64,000 nucleotides of DNA from Streptomonospora litoralis (GTDB lineage Bacteria > Actinomycetota > Actinomycetes > Streptosporangiales > Streptosporangiaceae). The notes beneath the pieces are model-generated. The model ran no database searches and had not been told where the DNA came from. It worked only from the letters and a program-made list of their open reading frames with translations. The position numbers and the translations under genes are program-made. Below are positions 1,405-59,378 of the stretch, in pieces. The first letter of the stretch is position 1, and each line of letters opens with the position of its first letter. Where the stretch lies: positions 491,101-555,100 of the forward strand of contig NZ_CP036455.1 of the NCBI RefSeq assembly GCF_004323735.1. Direction: 5' to 3'.

Positions 1405-2045
1405 GGGTGGTGGTGGGCTGGGCCTGCGGTGACCGGGTCGGGTGTTCGGCGGTTGGGCGTGCGGCGGGGCGGCTCGGGTCCGCTGTGCGGCCTTGTCAGT
1501 CTGCCGGGTGGCGGGTGGACTCGACTGAAATGCGGCGGCGAGGCCGGCGGATGGCTGGGCCTGCGCCCACCGGGTCGGGTGCTCGCCGGTGGCGGCGGCC
1601 GACGGGGGCAGCGACAGCAGCGGGGCCGGGCTCGCGGACGTCGGTTCGGGTGCTCGCCGGTGGCCCACTCGACGAGGCGGCGACGACGCCGGCGGGGCCG
1701 GACCTGCGGTGGTCGGGGCGGAGGTCACCGCCCCTGCCCGCGGATGGTCGAGCCCGGGGGCCGCCGCCCGGTTGTCGGCGCGGGGCAGTCGGCGGCCGTC
1801 ATGGCCGGACCGGGGCCACGAGATGCACGTACGTGCGGTGGTATCCGCTTCGGCACCGCCCTGAGGCGCCACTCTCGCACTGTCATAGCCACCAAAAGCC
1901 CACCCCGCCGGGCGGTGGAGCCCCCGGCGGCCGCGCCCGGGCGCAACGAGCGACGTGTCGCCGCCCCCACCCTGCCGGTTCATCCGGCGATGATCGTGAA
2001 CTTATGGCCGCGGAATACGCTTTCCGGCGACCATAAGTTCACGAT
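1405..2045 (+). repeat. Mosaic intergenic repeat, copy A
   Basis: This is non-coding DNA between the methyltransferase and DUF2530 genes. It is colinear with copy C read on its minus strand (46612 down to about 45770) and shares blocks with copy B. It holds the ~140-bp module with its core 'ctgtgcggccttgt..gtctgccggg' at about 1483-1509, then 'gggtgctcgccggtggc' at about 1576-1592. A central block follows (about 1690-1875), then the block 'caaaagcccaccccgccggg..gcgcaacgagcgacgtgtcg' (about 1893-1963). It ends in the hairpin at 1993-2045. Compared with copies B and C it lacks the ~160-bp segment containing 'aacttttcgtgc', and the junction falls near 1888. Long open frames across it are GC-driven and differ between copies. 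Outer limits are approximate. Confidence 0.8.
1993..2045. repeat. Long hairpin at end of repeat copy A
   Basis: The arm ATCGTGAACTTATGG (1993-2007) pairs perfectly with CCATAAGTTCACGAT (2031-2045). An inner CGGAA (2011-2015) pairs with TTCCG (2022-2026). The same hairpin, with the same flanking 'ccggttcatccggcgatg', ends repeat copy C. It could act as a terminator or as a structural end of the repeat. Confidence 0.85.
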
Positions 2046-12992: not shown

Positions 12993-13847
12993 TCAGTACA
13001 TGAAGATGTCGCGGGCGGTGGTCGCCTTGAGTGCGCGGTCGAACCAGCTGTCGAGTTGGCCGATGTCGGTGCAGGCGAGGATGGTGTCGCGCTGGTCGTC
13101 GGTGAGGTCGACGCCGTTGGCGTCGAGGATTCGCAGGACGTCCTCGGCCCGCCCTTTCGCGCAACCTTCTTCGATGAAGGGGCGCGCGATCTCGCTCTGC
13201 CACCCGTACTGCTCTGTCTGCATCTGTTCCCTCCAGTGCTGTGCCGCGGCCTGATTAAGGTGCGCCTCGATGAGTTTATGGTAGATCCTCATGCGTTCTG
13301 GTGGAACAGCATCCAGAGCCGCCTGTGTAGCATCCAGAACGTCGTGGTTTTCGCTGTGCATGACAGTGGACAACACGGACAACTCGGGCATTTGCCGAGC
13401 CTGTTCAATGTCGACGACGACGGGGGCGTTGTCCGGACCGAGTACGGATACGTTCAGCCGCAGACTGTCGTAAACGCATCCGATCGGTGTGCCTGCCCAC
13501 TTGGCGATCTTGCGGTCACTGCTGATGACCAGCAGGTGTACCGGACACTTCAGCCGCTCGCGGATCGCGGCTACGTAGAGCGGCCAGGTGTAGGGCTTCT
13601 CATCGTCTTTTCCCTGTTGAACCTCGGTGATGATAGCCATCACCTTGGTGTCGCCCTCGCCGTAGAGGACGCTGACCTGGTCCGCCTGGGCGGGCTTGAT
13701 CGCGAATACGGAAGAGTCGCCACAGCCGATGTGAGCTTGTTTGAAGTCGGGCAGGTCCATGCCGAAGGTGTCGCGCAGGAGAAGAGCGGGCATTTCCGGG
13801 CGATCTTGAAAGAGGAGGACTTGAGCCTCGTGGTTGTGTCCGGGCAT
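12993..13847 (-). CDS. Rpn/PD-(D/E)XK-type putative nuclease, copy 1
   Basis: This 284-aa protein belongs to an actinobacterial family of unknown function that I recognise by layout. An N-terminal HNHEAQVLLFQDRPEMPALLLRDTFGMDLP block is followed by a nuclease-like core: a beta strand with ITEVQ (~80), then YTWPLYVAAIRERLKCPVHLLVIS. After VLGPDNAPVVVD the C-terminus ends TDIGQLDSWFDRAL. The E-x-Q between strands resembles the active site of the Rpn/YhgA-like PD-(D/E)XK superfamily; catalysis is inferred only. The ATG at 13847 is chosen because the paralogue at 47280-48154 starts at the same alignment position. The frame stays open to 13949. GC content is lower than its neighbours. An IS lies 195 bp upstream. 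Confidence 0.7.
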   Translation of the reverse strand: MPGHNHEAQVLLFQDRPEMPALLLRDTFGMDLPDFKQAHIGCGDSSVFAIKPAQADQVSVLYGEGDTKVMAIITEVQQGKDDEKPYTWPLYVAAIRERLKCPVHLLVISSDRKIAKWAGTPIGCVYDSLRLNVSVLGPDNAPVVVDIEQARQMPELSVLSTVMHSENHDVLDATQAALDAVPPERMRIYHKLIEAHLNQAAAQHWREQMQTEQYGWQSEIARPFIEEGCAKGRAEDVLRILDANGVDLTDDQRDTILACTDIGQLDSWFDRALKATTARDIFMY

Positions 13848-22182: not shown

Positions 22183-22363
22183 GGCCGACACTCCTTTGTC
22201 TCGTCGCAGGCGCCGCCGTGCCGCCGTCCGCGCGGAGCCCGCGCCGCCGCGCGCACCCCCACCGTAACCGAATGCCATTCGGTCTGCACGGATGAAAGTT
22301 CCGCAAAGTCGTGCCAACCCCGGTACGGCAGCAGCGCCGCAGGGCACGGTGCCTTCTAGGCAT

Positions 22364-23290
22364 TGTTCAAGAACGCCGGTCTGCTGTGCGGCCTTTGCTG
22401 TGGCCTTGTTGGTCTGCCGGGTGGATTAATGCCCGAGTTTCCGGTGGGTCTGCCCCCGCGCTGCGGCGGCGGTGGCCCACGAAGTGCCCCGAATGGCGCG
22501 AAAACAGCCCCGGAGTCAACTTTTCGTGCATCTCGTGGCCGCGGCGCCCGCCGAGGCCGCCCGCAAAACGGGCATAGACCCCCAAAAGCCCACCCCATCG
22601 GGCGGTAAAGCTCCCGCAGGCGACGCCCGGGCGCAACGAGCGACGTGTCGTCGCCCCCGGTCCCGATCCGGCGCACCCCCGGGAGCGTGCGAGCGCCCGC
22701 GACCGCGCCACACTCCCGCGGCCCCCTGCCTGCGCAGGCTCCGGTCGGAACACGGCGGCGCCGCCTACCGACCCCGCGCCCGCTATGCCCGACAGCCGGA
22801 GTCGCCCGCGACCGCGGCGATCATGGTCAAAATCCCAGAAAGCGCCGCTGGATTTCGTCATACGGGCACGATCATCGCGCCGCCCTGCGCCATCACGGAC
22901 ACGCAACCCCCTTCCCGGCACCCGCACCGCCCCTCGTCGGGCTCGTCGGGCGGACCACCGACGAGCACCCGAACCGGCGACCGCAGGCCCTGCCATCCAC
23001 CGACCTCGCCGCCGCTTCCCCGCAAGACCATCCGCGAGCCGGCAGACCAACAAGGCCGCACAGCAGACCCGAGCCGCCGATCCGTCCGGCACCGCCACCG
23101 ACGAGCACCCGAACCGTTGGACGCGGGCCCCGCCCGTCGCCGTCCTCGGCGCCGCTTTTCCATACGACCACCCGCATCCCGGCAGACCAGCAAAGCCGCA
23201 CAGCAGGCCGGGGCCGCCGATCCGCCGCACGCCGGTACGTCTGAACCGTGGACGCGGTACCGCCCGCGGGCGCCGGGCGCTTGCCGGTGA
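22364..23290. repeat. Mosaic intergenic repeat, copy B
   Basis: Non-coding. The left part (22364 to ~22720, plus orientation) begins TGTTCAAGAACGCCGG like the end of copy C. It carries a truncated ~140-bp module, then the blocks containing 'ccggtgggtctg', 'aacttttcgtgc' (~22521), 'caaaacgggcatag' and 'gcgcaacgagcgacgtgtcg'. The right part (~22950-23220, minus orientation) holds two tandem 140-bp modules: 'ggcagacca(a/g)ca' recurs at 23041 and 23181. Between them lies an imperfect hairpin (~22817-22882) that shares 'GCGATGATCGTG' and 'GCGCTTTC' with the hairpins of copies A and C. The 1.19-kb gap between the acyl-CoA dehydrogenase and thiolase genes is mostly this repeat. Confidence 0.8.
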
Positions 23291-45287: not shown

Positions 45288-45419
45288 GACTCCCGGCGGC
45301 GGGCGGTCGACGCGCCGTCCGCCGTACCGATCATTCGAATCCGACCGGCGGCGCCGGAAGGGTGGCGGGGATGACGACCGGGCGGTTCCTCCGGGAGGGG
45401 GCGCCCGGCTAAGCCGTGC

Positions 45420-46612
45420 TTAAGAAGTGCTGCATCGGTCCGGCTCCCATGCGCGGCCGGGCCGTACGGCTCGGATCCGTTACGCGGACTTGCCCTGGCC
45501 TTGTCCCCGGCCGGGCGGCGGGCTGATTGACGGGGAGCAGCGGGCACCGGGGACGGTGGCGGGCTGGGCCCGCGGTCGAGGGAGCGGGGACCGCGCCCAA
45601 CGGGTCGGGTGCTGCCGGTGGCGCGCCTGACGGATCGGCGGCTCGGCTCTGCTGTGCGGCCTTGTTGGTCTGCCGGGATGCGGGTGGTCTTACAGAAAAG
45701 CGGCGCCGAGGTCGGCGGGGGACTGGGCCTGCGGTCGTTGGGCGGCACCGGTCCCGCCGAGTCTGTCTATCGTGAACTTATGGCCACCGGAAAGCGCATT
45801 CCGCGGCCATAAGTTCACGATCATCGCCGGATGAACCGGTATACCGGACATACCGGCACCGGTTCGCCGGCTGGGTGTCGCCGTGGTCCGACCCGGCCCG
45901 AACCGGCAGGGGCCGCACGGCGGGGCGCGGTTGCGGGTGCTCGCGCGGCCCGGGGGTGCGCCGGATCGGGGGTCGGGGGCGACGACACGTCGCTCGTGGC
46001 GCCCGGGCGCGGCCGCGGGGAGTCGCACCCCCCGATGGGGTGGGCTTTTGGGGGCCTATGCCCGTTTTGCGGGCGGCCTCGGCGGGCGCGGCGGCCACGA
46101 GACGCACGAAAAGTTGACGCCGGAGGCGCTATCGCGCCATTGGGTGCGCCTCGTGCGCCGTCGCCGCCGCGGCGCGGGCACGGACCCACCGGGAACTCGG
46201 GCGCTGGCGGACAAAACACCCCGTGTTGTTTCGTATCGCGGAATGACAGCGCGGGGGTGGCGCCTCGGGGCGGCACCGAGGCGGGTGCCGCCGCACCTAC
46301 GTGCGTCTCGTGACCCCGGTCCGGCCCCATGGCGGCCGCCGATCGCCTCGCATCAGGCCCGCGCCGGCAACCGGGCGGCGCCGCCGGGCTCGACCACCCG
46401 GGCCGGGGCCGCTCACCGCCGCCCCGACCACCCCAGGCCCGGCCCCGACCGGCGTCCTCGCCGCCCTTCGCCGCGACCGCCACCGGCGGGCACCCGGCCC
46501 GTTGGGCGCGGGCCCGGCCCCCGCCGCCCTCGGCGCCGCTTTTCCCTAAGACCACCTATCCACCCGGCAGACCAACAAGGCCGCCACAGCAGACCGGCGT
46601 TTTTGAACACGG
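45420..46612. repeat. Mosaic intergenic repeat, copy C (most complete)
   Basis: Non-coding. The right part (46612 down to ~45830, minus orientation) begins GTTCAAAAACGCCGG and carries one ~140-bp module, a central ~180-bp block, the 'aacttttcgtgc' block (~46105-46120) and 'gcgccacgagcgacgtgtcg'. It ends in the hairpin. It contains every block found in copy A plus the segment that copy A lacks. The left part (~45540-45760, plus orientation) adds about 1.5 modules pointing toward the same hairpin. So modules face a central hairpin from both sides. The outer right end abuts the stop codon of the CMD gene (46614). Confidence 0.8.
45769..45821. repeat. Perfect 17-bp hairpin of repeat copy C
   Basis: ATCGTGAACTTATGGCC (45769-45785) pairs perfectly with GGCCATAAGTTCACGAT (45805-45821). 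The loop contains CGGAA and TTCCG, which can pair again. Sequence and flanks match 1993-2045 almost exactly in the opposite orientation. Confidence 0.9.
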
Positions 46613-46613
46613 C

Positions 46614-47183
46614 CTAATCCTCCGGCAGTGGCACGCGCAGGGCGCGCAACAGGGTGGCCAGCAAGTCGTAGTAGCCCACCAGCGTGACGAGTTCGACCAC
46701 ACCGGCCTCGCCGAAATGCTCCTCGGCGGCGGTGTGGCAGGCGGCGGACGTGTCGCGGTCGCGCAGCAGCGCGCGGGTGAAGTCGAGCGCGGCCCGGTCG
46801 GCGGGGCCGAAGGACTCAGGGGTGGCGTGGCCGCCCAGCGCCGCGATCTCGCTCTCCGCCAGCCCCGCCTCGGCGGCCAGTCCCCGGTGCGCCGACCATT
46901 CGAAGGCGCTCGCCCGGGCGGTGGCGACGGTCAGGATCGCGATCTCCCGGATGCGCGCCGACAGCGAGGTCCGCGCCCCCACGGCCGCGCTCAGGTGCTG
47001 CAAAGCTGCGCCGACGCCCGGCGCGGCCAGCATCGCGTTGAACGGGCCGTGCAGCCGGCCGTCCGCGTCGACCAGCTCGAAGGGCGGTTCGCTGCCGTAC
47101 TTGGCCAGCACACCGTCGTAGATCGCCCGCTGCTCGGCGGACAGCTCGTCGGGGGAGTACCAGTGGATCCGTCCGTGGCGCAT
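46614..47183 (-). CDS. Carboxymuconolactone decarboxylase-family protein
   Basis: This 189-aa AhpD-like protein has the helical CMD domain: TSLSARIREIAILTVATARASAFEWSAHRGLAAEAGLAESEIAALGG. It ends with ARDRDTSAACHTAAEEHFGEAGVVELVTLVGYYDLLATLL. The E-W-x-x-H arrangement (EWSAHRG) replaces the peroxidase CxxC, so it is not an AhpD-type peroxidase; Glu and His are as in the decarboxylase-like members. The ATG at 47183 fits the family start (RIHWYSPDELSAEQRAIYDGV). Its stop codon lies 2 nt from the end of repeat C. Function unknown. Confidence 0.85.
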   Translation of the reverse strand: MRHGRIHWYSPDELSAEQRAIYDGVLAKYGSEPPFELVDADGRLHGPFNAMLAAPGVGAALQHLSAAVGARTSLSARIREIAILTVATARASAFEWSAHRGLAAEAGLAESEIAALGGHATPESFGPADRAALDFTRALLRDRDTSAACHTAAEEHFGEAGVVELVTLVGYYDLLATLLRALRVPLPED

Positions 47184-47279: not shown

Positions 47280-48154
47280 TCAGTGGAAGATCTCCTCGGC
47301 GGTGTCGACGCTGAAGGCGCGGTCGAACCAGGTGTCGAGCTGGTCGAGGTCGGTGCAGGCGGTGACGCGTTTCTTGACATTGTCGGAGACGGTGAGGCCG
47401 CGGTGGGTGAGTACCGAGAGGAGCGCCTCGGCCTTCCCCTCGGCCTTCCCCTCAGCCTTGCCCTCGGCCTTGCCCGTGTCGATGAACCTGCGGGCGAATT
47501 CGGACCGGTAGGTGAAAGTCGGATTGGCCATCAGCGCATCCCAGTTCTCTAGTGCCGATTGCTTGAGAGCGGAGTCCAAGTACCCATAGTAGACGCGGAA
47601 GTCGTGATCGCTGAGGGTGTTCATCCCCGCAGCGCACGCGTTCATGCTCTTCTGCTCCTCGCCGCGGTGGGCGAGGACGGAGAGCACGGCCAGTTCGGGG
47701 AGTTCCACCGCTTCCTCTTCCGAGACGACCACCGGGATCTCGTCGGGGCCGACGACGAAGGGAACCAGCCGCATGCCCGGGTGGCCGAGTCGATGGGTTC
47801 GCGCGCCCACGCCGCGGTCGCCTCATCGAGGCAGAAGACGACCAGCATCACCGGGCACTCCAGGTTCCGGCGCACCGTGGTGAGGTAGACCGGCCAGGAG
47901 TAGGACTTATCATCGTCCCTCCGGCGCTGGACCTCGGCGATCACCGCCATCTGCGCCTGCGAGCCCTTCTTCAAGGCCACGACGCGATCACAGTAGAAGT
48001 TCCTGGTCTCGAACTGCGCGCAGTTCTCCGACGCCATGTCGGCGCTGTCGTATCCGGGGAGGTCGACGCCGAACACGTCCTCCAATAGGCGTGTGACCAA
48101 CTGAGGACGGTTCTTTACGAGCTCGATCGGCATCTCGTGGTCGTTCGAGGGCAT
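47280..48154 (-). pseudogene. Rpn/PD-(D/E)XK-type putative nuclease, copy 2, frameshifted
   Basis: The first part (48154 to ~47790) starts PSNDHEMPIELVKNRPQLVTRLLEDVFGVDLP and contains AVIAEVQRRRDDDKSYSWPVYLTTVRRNLECPVMLVVF. The remainder lies in another frame and continues LGHPGMRLVPFVVGPDEIPVVVS to the end, TDLDQLDTWFDRAF. Family members read PIDLGHPG here; the minus strand has GAC TC where GAC CTC is expected, so one C is missing near 47788. Restoring it gives one continuous protein of ~291 aa. It could be a true pseudogene or a sequencing error. A 12-bp tandem repeat encodes GKAEGKAEGKAEGKAE (~47430-47475). Paralogue of 12993-13847. Confidence 0.82.

Positions 48155-55067: not shown

Positions 55068-59378
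<4,311 letters not shown>

Follow-up and report, generated by a model that had tools for sequence, protein, structure and literature searches.

What are the long non-coding repeats that fill three gaps between genes in this part of the Streptomonospora litoralis chromosome? The window, a stretch of 64,000 nucleotides, covers positions 491,101-555,100 of the 5,724,192-bp chromosome, which is accompanied in the assembly by a second contig of 90 kb. A first-pass annotation, made from the letters alone, had proposed that the three gaps share long ordered blocks. Our alignments bear this out: the alignment of copies B and C covers 234 nt at 85% identity, and their modules align over two further stretches of 113 nt (86%) and 103 nt (85%); copies A and C match over 85 nt (92%) and 81 nt (86%). 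The core motif of the ~140-bp modules described there occurs six times in the window at up to three mismatches, against 0.01 expected. We read the repeats as probable copies of one large DNA transposon, non-autonomous, of the IS5 type and foldback in architecture, which was moved in trans and has by now mostly decayed.

Copy C (45413-46613, plus strand; locus L073; letters checked) is an element of 1,201 bp with both ends and a CTAA flank on each side. The terminal inverted repeats (TIRs) of the element read CTAAGCCGTGTTTAAGAA...TTCTTAAACACGGCTTAG. The left flank CTAA and left TIR, a type-2 end, read CTAAGCCGTGCTTAAGAA from 45409 (45409-45426, plus strand), and the right TIR, a type-1 end, reads with its flank CTAA as TTTTTGAACACGGCCTAA from 46600 (46600-46617, minus strand). 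The right end abuts the stop codon of a minus-strand gene at 46614-47183. The left arm (45580-45733, minus strand) consists of inverted ~140-bp modules, both partial (45580-45623 and 45648-45733), and the right arm of one terminal module (46470-46612, plus strand). Between the arms lie the central palindrome P1 of 53 nt with a 17-bp outer stem (45769-45821, no strand assigned) and a central non-coding core (45900-46445, plus strand), divided where the query was cut into core1 (45900-46205) and core2 (46206-46445).

Piece mapping and the end search placed copy A at 1477-2077 on the minus strand, with left-arm modules at 1477-1595 and 1622-1664, core2 at 1695-1886, a partial core1 at 1884-1972 and P1 at 1993-2045. 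The right TIR of this copy (2060-2077) sits at the stop codon of gene 2074-2487; it is worn and weakly supported and falls below the threshold of the end search. Copy A had been described as colinear with copy C except for one missing segment; it is colinear, and of core1 it keeps only positions 71-161. By the same methods, copy B spans 22360-23211 on the minus strand. Its left type-1 end consists of CTAG (22356-22359) and the TIR (22360-22373), and it carries a terminal module (22364-22426), core1 (22431-22730) and two right-arm modules (22955-23069 and 23091-23211); piece mapping found no match to core2 or P1 in this copy. A hairpin had been assigned to each copy. This stands for copies A and C, where P1 folds with z of about -8, and fails for copy B, in which the one candidate stretch that we folded was no better than shuffles (76/200 as good). 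The statement that the repeats have no terminal inverted repeat was wrong for copy C, with both ends, and for copy B, with its left end at CTAG.

The window holds other repeats besides. Six direct repeats of 276 nt lie at 55068-59378 within one ORF of 1,436 aa, which by eye resembles a hybrid sensor kinase in which HAMP-like units recur and a receiver lies at the C-terminus. Positions 13002-13077 and 47286-47361 are 79% alike over 76 nt (repeat family D7), probably in paralogous genes.

The repeats are not restricted to these three copies. A motif scan found the 23-nt core motif at 69 places in the chromosome, and the 20-nt arm/module motif occurs at 276 places at up to three mismatches, with none for the reversed control. 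The genome-wide search with copy C, suggested in the first-pass annotation as a check, gave 188 matches in the own genome; scoring covered 40 of 710 candidates, and each of the 40 matched at E below 1e-170. Exact P1 arms are present at 18 places. We examined 107 loci and mapped 97 of them with four pieces (P1, core1, core2 and module); the list is non-exhaustive, drawing on part of the module places and on the 40 scored candidates, and the sequences of L109 and L126 overlap but contain different copies. The element spans of the 97 loci sum to 99 kb, with a mean of 1.02 kb, or ~1.7% of the chromosome.

Across 200 sampled genomes of the family, and with up to two mismatches allowed, the module motif was counted 235 times in the own genome; the other genomes had 0-4 each, and the five sister species none. 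The full core had no match in the 59 relatives searched, with eight candidates scored per genome. A core scan of a named genome collection, which may omit the own record, returned one Microbacterium locus, which we take to be a chance match. A plasmid or phage element was rejected because copy C had no match in the plasmid and phage collections. The available portions of the open-licence literature yielded no description of these repeats. The proposal of a large non-autonomous, lineage-specific repeat holds, with about a hundred sites, no conserved ORF and a core unmatched in 59 relatives.

The loci follow one plan, in which outward-facing tandem modules of ~140 bp flank a centre that is non-coding and contains two palindromes at most. 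The order is broken in none of the 97 mapped loci, the left modules all pointing in one direction and the right modules in the opposite one. Module matches per arm range from 0 to 6, partial ones included, and 68 of the 194 arms have a single match. The consensus of 247 modules, ~140 bp long, contains the boxes ...CACCGGCGAGCACCCGACCCG... and ...CCCGGCAGACCAACAAGGCCGCCCAGCAGACC.... P1, core1 and core2 together make up the centre in 49 loci, and core1 and core2 without P1 do so in 22; 10 loci have only P1 there, 11 have other mixes and 5 lack all three pieces. Foldback transposons have inverted arms of tandem sub-repeats around a middle domain. Both arms were found in 83 of the 97 loci, one in 11 and none in 3, and by these inverted tandem arms the element is built like a foldback transposon.

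The 39 near-full cores share a mean identity of 83% (range 76-99.8%). No frame is open across the copies, and 116 of the 128 gaps in these cores are not multiples of three, on which grounds a conserved protein was rejected; the first-pass annotation was thus right that no frame is conserved and that the repeat contains no transposase. An ORF-like C-terminus seen by eye in the type-2 end (KAKGKSA and a stop) was dropped, since indels interrupt it in several copies. That the core is transcribed as a structured non-coding RNA family is highly improbable. The two strands of the centre of copy C, P1 included, do give better folds than their shuffles (20 shuffles, z -3.7 and -4.9), but this is what inverted DNA repeats are expected to do. 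Moreover, core1, core2 or both are missing in 26 of 97 loci, and the consensus fold of the core (30 of 39 cores, alignment A4) has a covariation term of only -0.4 kcal/mol with double changes in 6 of 117 pairs, so that RNA structure in the core was rejected. A known RNA family was rejected as well, since the window has no Rfam match.

The reading as an IS5-type transposon draws on the ends. The outermost modules finish in a common signature, ...CAGCAGACCGGCGTTCTTAAACACGGCTTAG for type-1 ends and ...GGAGCCGGACCGATCCAGCACTTCTTAAACACGGCTTAG for type-2 ends. The end search recognised 64 ends in 43 of 107 loci, both ends in 21 loci and none in 64. Among the two-ended loci, 19 of 21 combine one type-1 with one type-2 end and two have type-1 twice. 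The two-ended L091 and L211 span only 216 and 279 bp; hence, either the ends suffice or the interiors were deleted later. At 49 of the 64 ends, TA stands exactly at bases 2-3 beyond ...ACGGC, TA making up 0.98% of dinucleotides in the window. Identical flanking 4-mers occur in 2 of 21 two-ended copies (copy C, CTAA/CTAA; L150, CTGA/CTGA), the usual flank pattern, CTAA...TTAG, being inverted. A 2-bp TA target duplication fits the flanks weakly. Stop codons are frequent neighbours by the gene calls, which here and below come from a codon-usage script: for 21 of 64 ends, a gene that reads toward the element has its stop codon no more than 6 nt away. Of the 18 CTAG sites in the window, 1 has a called stop within 4 nt, so CTAG targeting alone fails to explain the placing at stop codons, and this slightly lowers the support for the transposon reading. 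Together with the 4-bp duplication in only 2 of 21 copies, it leaves neither a target duplication nor a simple CTAG rule established.

The same termini bound intact IS5-family insertion sequences (IS) in the sister species G005 and in G023, a member of another genus. A common terminus, GCC(C/G)TGTTTAAGAA, is shared by the IS of G005, the IS of G023 and the S. litoralis elements, in the 43 of 107 loci that retain an end. The judgement that the repeat is not an IS was therefore correct as to the transposase, which it does not contain, and incomplete as to the ends, which are IS5-type inverted repeats shared with intact IS in a sister species. G005, of the same genus, has four two-ended IS copies, GCCCTGTTTAAGAA...TTCTTAAACAGGGC with CTAG on either side, plus two one-ended matches; each of the three copies read is 1,032 bp long. 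The ORF of 302 aa, taken from a single copy, scored 250 bits against the IS5 model NF033580 (cut-off 110) and matches DUF4096 plus DDE domains. G023 has five copies of a ~1-kb IS with the ends GCCGTGTTTAAGAAG and CTTCTTAAACAGGAC; CTAG stands on either side of four of them, and the fifth has CTAG/CTAA. The transposases of G023 and G005, one read per genome, are 82% identical and match IS5-family or DUF4096/DDE models. The S. litoralis element L208 carries the terminal 14 nt of the G005 IS at both ends.

The terminus is rare: among 296 genomes from the class, CTAGGCCGTGTTTAAGAA at up to one mismatch turned up in four (the own genome, G005, G058 and G401), and no second end was found in G058 and G401. 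In searches confined to this one IS5 subgroup, the own genome gave no hit to DUF4096, with a control set positive in 5 of 14 genomes, and none to the G023 transposase, in a search run without a positive control. With no match to this type of transposase in the own genome, a present-day helper there is without support. Inward of the TIR, the ends of the element and of the IS have no significant similarity (at best, 221 of 2,000 shuffles were as good). In the sister species G004, the loci L223 and L224 carry this end too, as the 17-nt terminus TTCTTAAACACGGCTTA, with an interior that is quite different; several element families may thus use one helper.

Sites without the element were found in the sister species. 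The flanks of copy C are present in G004 (89% and 82% identity, 110 bp apart) and in G001 (87% and 81%, 165 bp apart), compared with about 1.32 kb between them here; copy C is thus absent at the corresponding place in these two of the five sister genomes. Only the left flank was found in G002 and G003, and in G005 the left flank is followed by 134 bp and then by a farther part of the right flank, the neighbouring gene being absent; since the right-hand neighbour gene was not found beside the left flank, these three genomes are undecisive. The element of L099 is likewise absent from G004 at the corresponding stop codon. IS5-type ends, junction letters, empty sites and the lack of coding sequence together make a non-autonomous IS5-type transposon the best reading.

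Passive repeats, arising by gene conversion and tandem amplification alone and never by transposition, are by comparison quite improbable. The variable number of module matches per arm and the patchy similarity between some copies would suit such an origin. The near-identity of some copies over about 1 kb (L113/L114, 98.6% over 1,126 bp; L075/L076, 97.3% over 1,018 bp) counts toward mobility, although it could stem from gene conversion. Arguing against a passive origin are the defined ends that recur on an intact IS, the preference for certain junction letters, and the corresponding sites in sister genomes that lack the element. L113 (4.760 Mb) and L114 (4.782 Mb) are in opposite orientation ~21 kb apart and form a possible substrate for inversion.

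The position of the elements among genes raises another possibility, a functional repeat of the BIME kind, kept and spread for its action at gene 3' ends as terminator, mRNA stabiliser or DNA-topology site, with mobility secondary or long past. In raw counts, given without a genome-wide background, the 97 loci comprise 33 convergent, 49 tandem, 13 divergent and 2 undetermined contexts, and the excess of convergent over divergent pairs favours this explanation. So does the closeness to the 3' end of the upstream gene, with its stop codon, in 37 of the 49 tandem pairs (p 0.0005 against one half). However, TA-containing targets combined with selection against insertion into genes also explain the placing at stop codons. 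The related idea that the modules are 3'-UTRs following a stop codon was rejected because the arms remain inverted in tandem and divergent gene pairs as well.

The palindromes bear on the same explanation. P2 (62 nt) varies between copies yet keeps its pairing via compensatory changes. Among its 27 copies, 19 of them distinct (alignment A1 with 24 of 27, A2 with all 27), double changes affect 8 of 26 pairs, a number reached by 2 of 500 shuffles, and the double-change cells number 34 against 12.7 +- 3.0 in shuffles (0 of 500 as high), slid partners keeping 0-1; in "further pair types" P2 does not exceed its shuffles, 469 of 500 reaching the same level. The signal is weaker in P1, with double changes in 4 of 20 pairs (reached by 9 of 500 shuffles) and 11 cells against 4.5 (0 of 500), in a hand-picked alignment (A3, 45 of 72 copies) whose slid versions retain up to 3 pairs and 4 cells. 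All these covariation tests are inflated by the relatedness of the copies. The covariance check proposed for aligned copies thus came out in favour of P2, less strongly of P1 and not of the core, and the conjecture of a structural repeat applies to the palindromes only.

Such compensatory pairing, and the long palindromes beside related modules in four other genomes, would be expected of a BIME-like repeat. On the other hand, arm-to-arm correction can mimic selection by producing the same compensatory pattern, P2 is present in just 27 of 107 loci and P1 in 72, and P1 stands without arms in L142-L144. Weighing both sides, we regard a BIME-like function as the main reason for these repeats as doubtful. 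Least certain is what the hairpins do, as bidirectional terminators or as a substrate of transposition; a transposition hairpin and a mobile bidirectional terminator are our two leading guesses for the roles of P1, P2 and the core.

Weak module matches were found in G004 of the same genus and in G026, G028 and G012. G004 has tandem inverted arms, G026 and G028 have a single inverted module pair at one locus each, and the locus examined in G012 has no inverted pair. Among the four, IS5-type ends were shown for G004, in two other loci with a different interior. A scan of 27 loci from these four relatives revealed long palindromes whose sequence changes from one genome to the next but is repeated inside a genome, with two kinds in G026, one kind in two loci of G012 and one kind in three loci of G004; in G028, six of eight loci have none and the remaining two differ. 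When two copies from G026 and two from G012 were compared, in strings trimmed by hand, 4 double compensatory changes separated the members of each pair, and 2 further base pairs had changed in another way. Lineage-private palindromes beside related modules suggest that the lineages have the plan in common more than the letters. Judging from module similarity, the elements may be homologous as wholes across genera. In the own chromosome at ~926.6-927.3 kb (L248:5560-6270), we noticed by eye what looks like an old, diverged relative of the element, with the palindrome GGCGAAAATCCCA...TGGGATTATCGCC; G004 carries its own module array in that interval.

Compared with usual MITEs, which are several times shorter, the S. 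litoralis element has tandem-module arms and a palindromic centre. Like bacterial MITEs (PMC2229807) and TIMEs (PMC4133298), it contains no transposase, has TIRs of a known IS or transposon family and is intergenic; its TIRs match IS5, and two of its sites are empty in relatives. Target letters resemble those of the IS5 family, in which ISMysh01 of mycobacteria has CTAG repeats (PMC9241763) and the IS427 group in Paracoccus mostly 2-bp repeats (PMC3281130); the equality of the 14-nt terminus refers to the G005 and G023 elements, not to these published ones. In contrast to IS5-family IS, the S. litoralis elements have neither a transposase nor an IS-like interior. Like REP/BIME repeats (PMC2817692), they place palindromes within mosaic repeats between genes, at roughly a hundred or more sites. 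REPs, however, measure 20-40 bp (PMC3733652); no such short palindrome is the repeating unit here, where the module has ~140 bp, the palindromes have 53 and 62 nt, and the unit has module arms and IS5-type ends.

Foldback transposons with tandemly repeated arms have been described from eukaryotes, namely Tetris (PMC4079207), Galileo (PMC3573991) and Drosophila FB. The S. litoralis element resembles them in being non-autonomous, in its inverted arms of tandem repeats around a non-coding middle of variable size, and in that the autonomous partner is often missing. It differs from Tetris, which makes 8-10 bp duplications (PMC4079207), in being bacterial and in its short IS5-type TIRs and TA-containing junctions, and from eukaryotic foldbacks generally in the one or two self-complementary palindromes in its middle. 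Eukaryotic foldbacks are mostly of the Mutator type (PMC4079207); the IS5-type ends make common descent with them unlikely. The tandem arms of Galileo are reported to contain extra transposase-binding sites (PMC4079207).

We return to the non-autonomous IS5-type transposon and suggest how it may have spread. An IS5-family DDE transposase like that of G005 would act in trans on the ends, inserting the element at TA-containing sites, often stop codons. Unequal recombination may alter the number of modules, and inverted duplication or arm-to-arm correction may renew the palindromes. The source enzyme would afterwards have been lost from the S. litoralis genome.

More tentatively still, these elements might represent an undescribed superfamily of bacterial foldbacks within one actinobacterial family, with mirror-image module arms around one or two long palindromes. 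The self-complementarity of these lineage-private palindromes would be actively maintained, and selection would act on the hairpin itself, whether it is a substrate of transposition or a bidirectional terminator that moves. The co-varying, lineage-specific palindromes pose the question of whether self-complementarity is kept by selection or by arm-to-arm correction. About 100 kb of one chromosome receives an explanation, and with a complete candidate helper in a sister species, the origin of foldbacks by loss of the transposase and lengthening of the arms becomes testable in a simple host.
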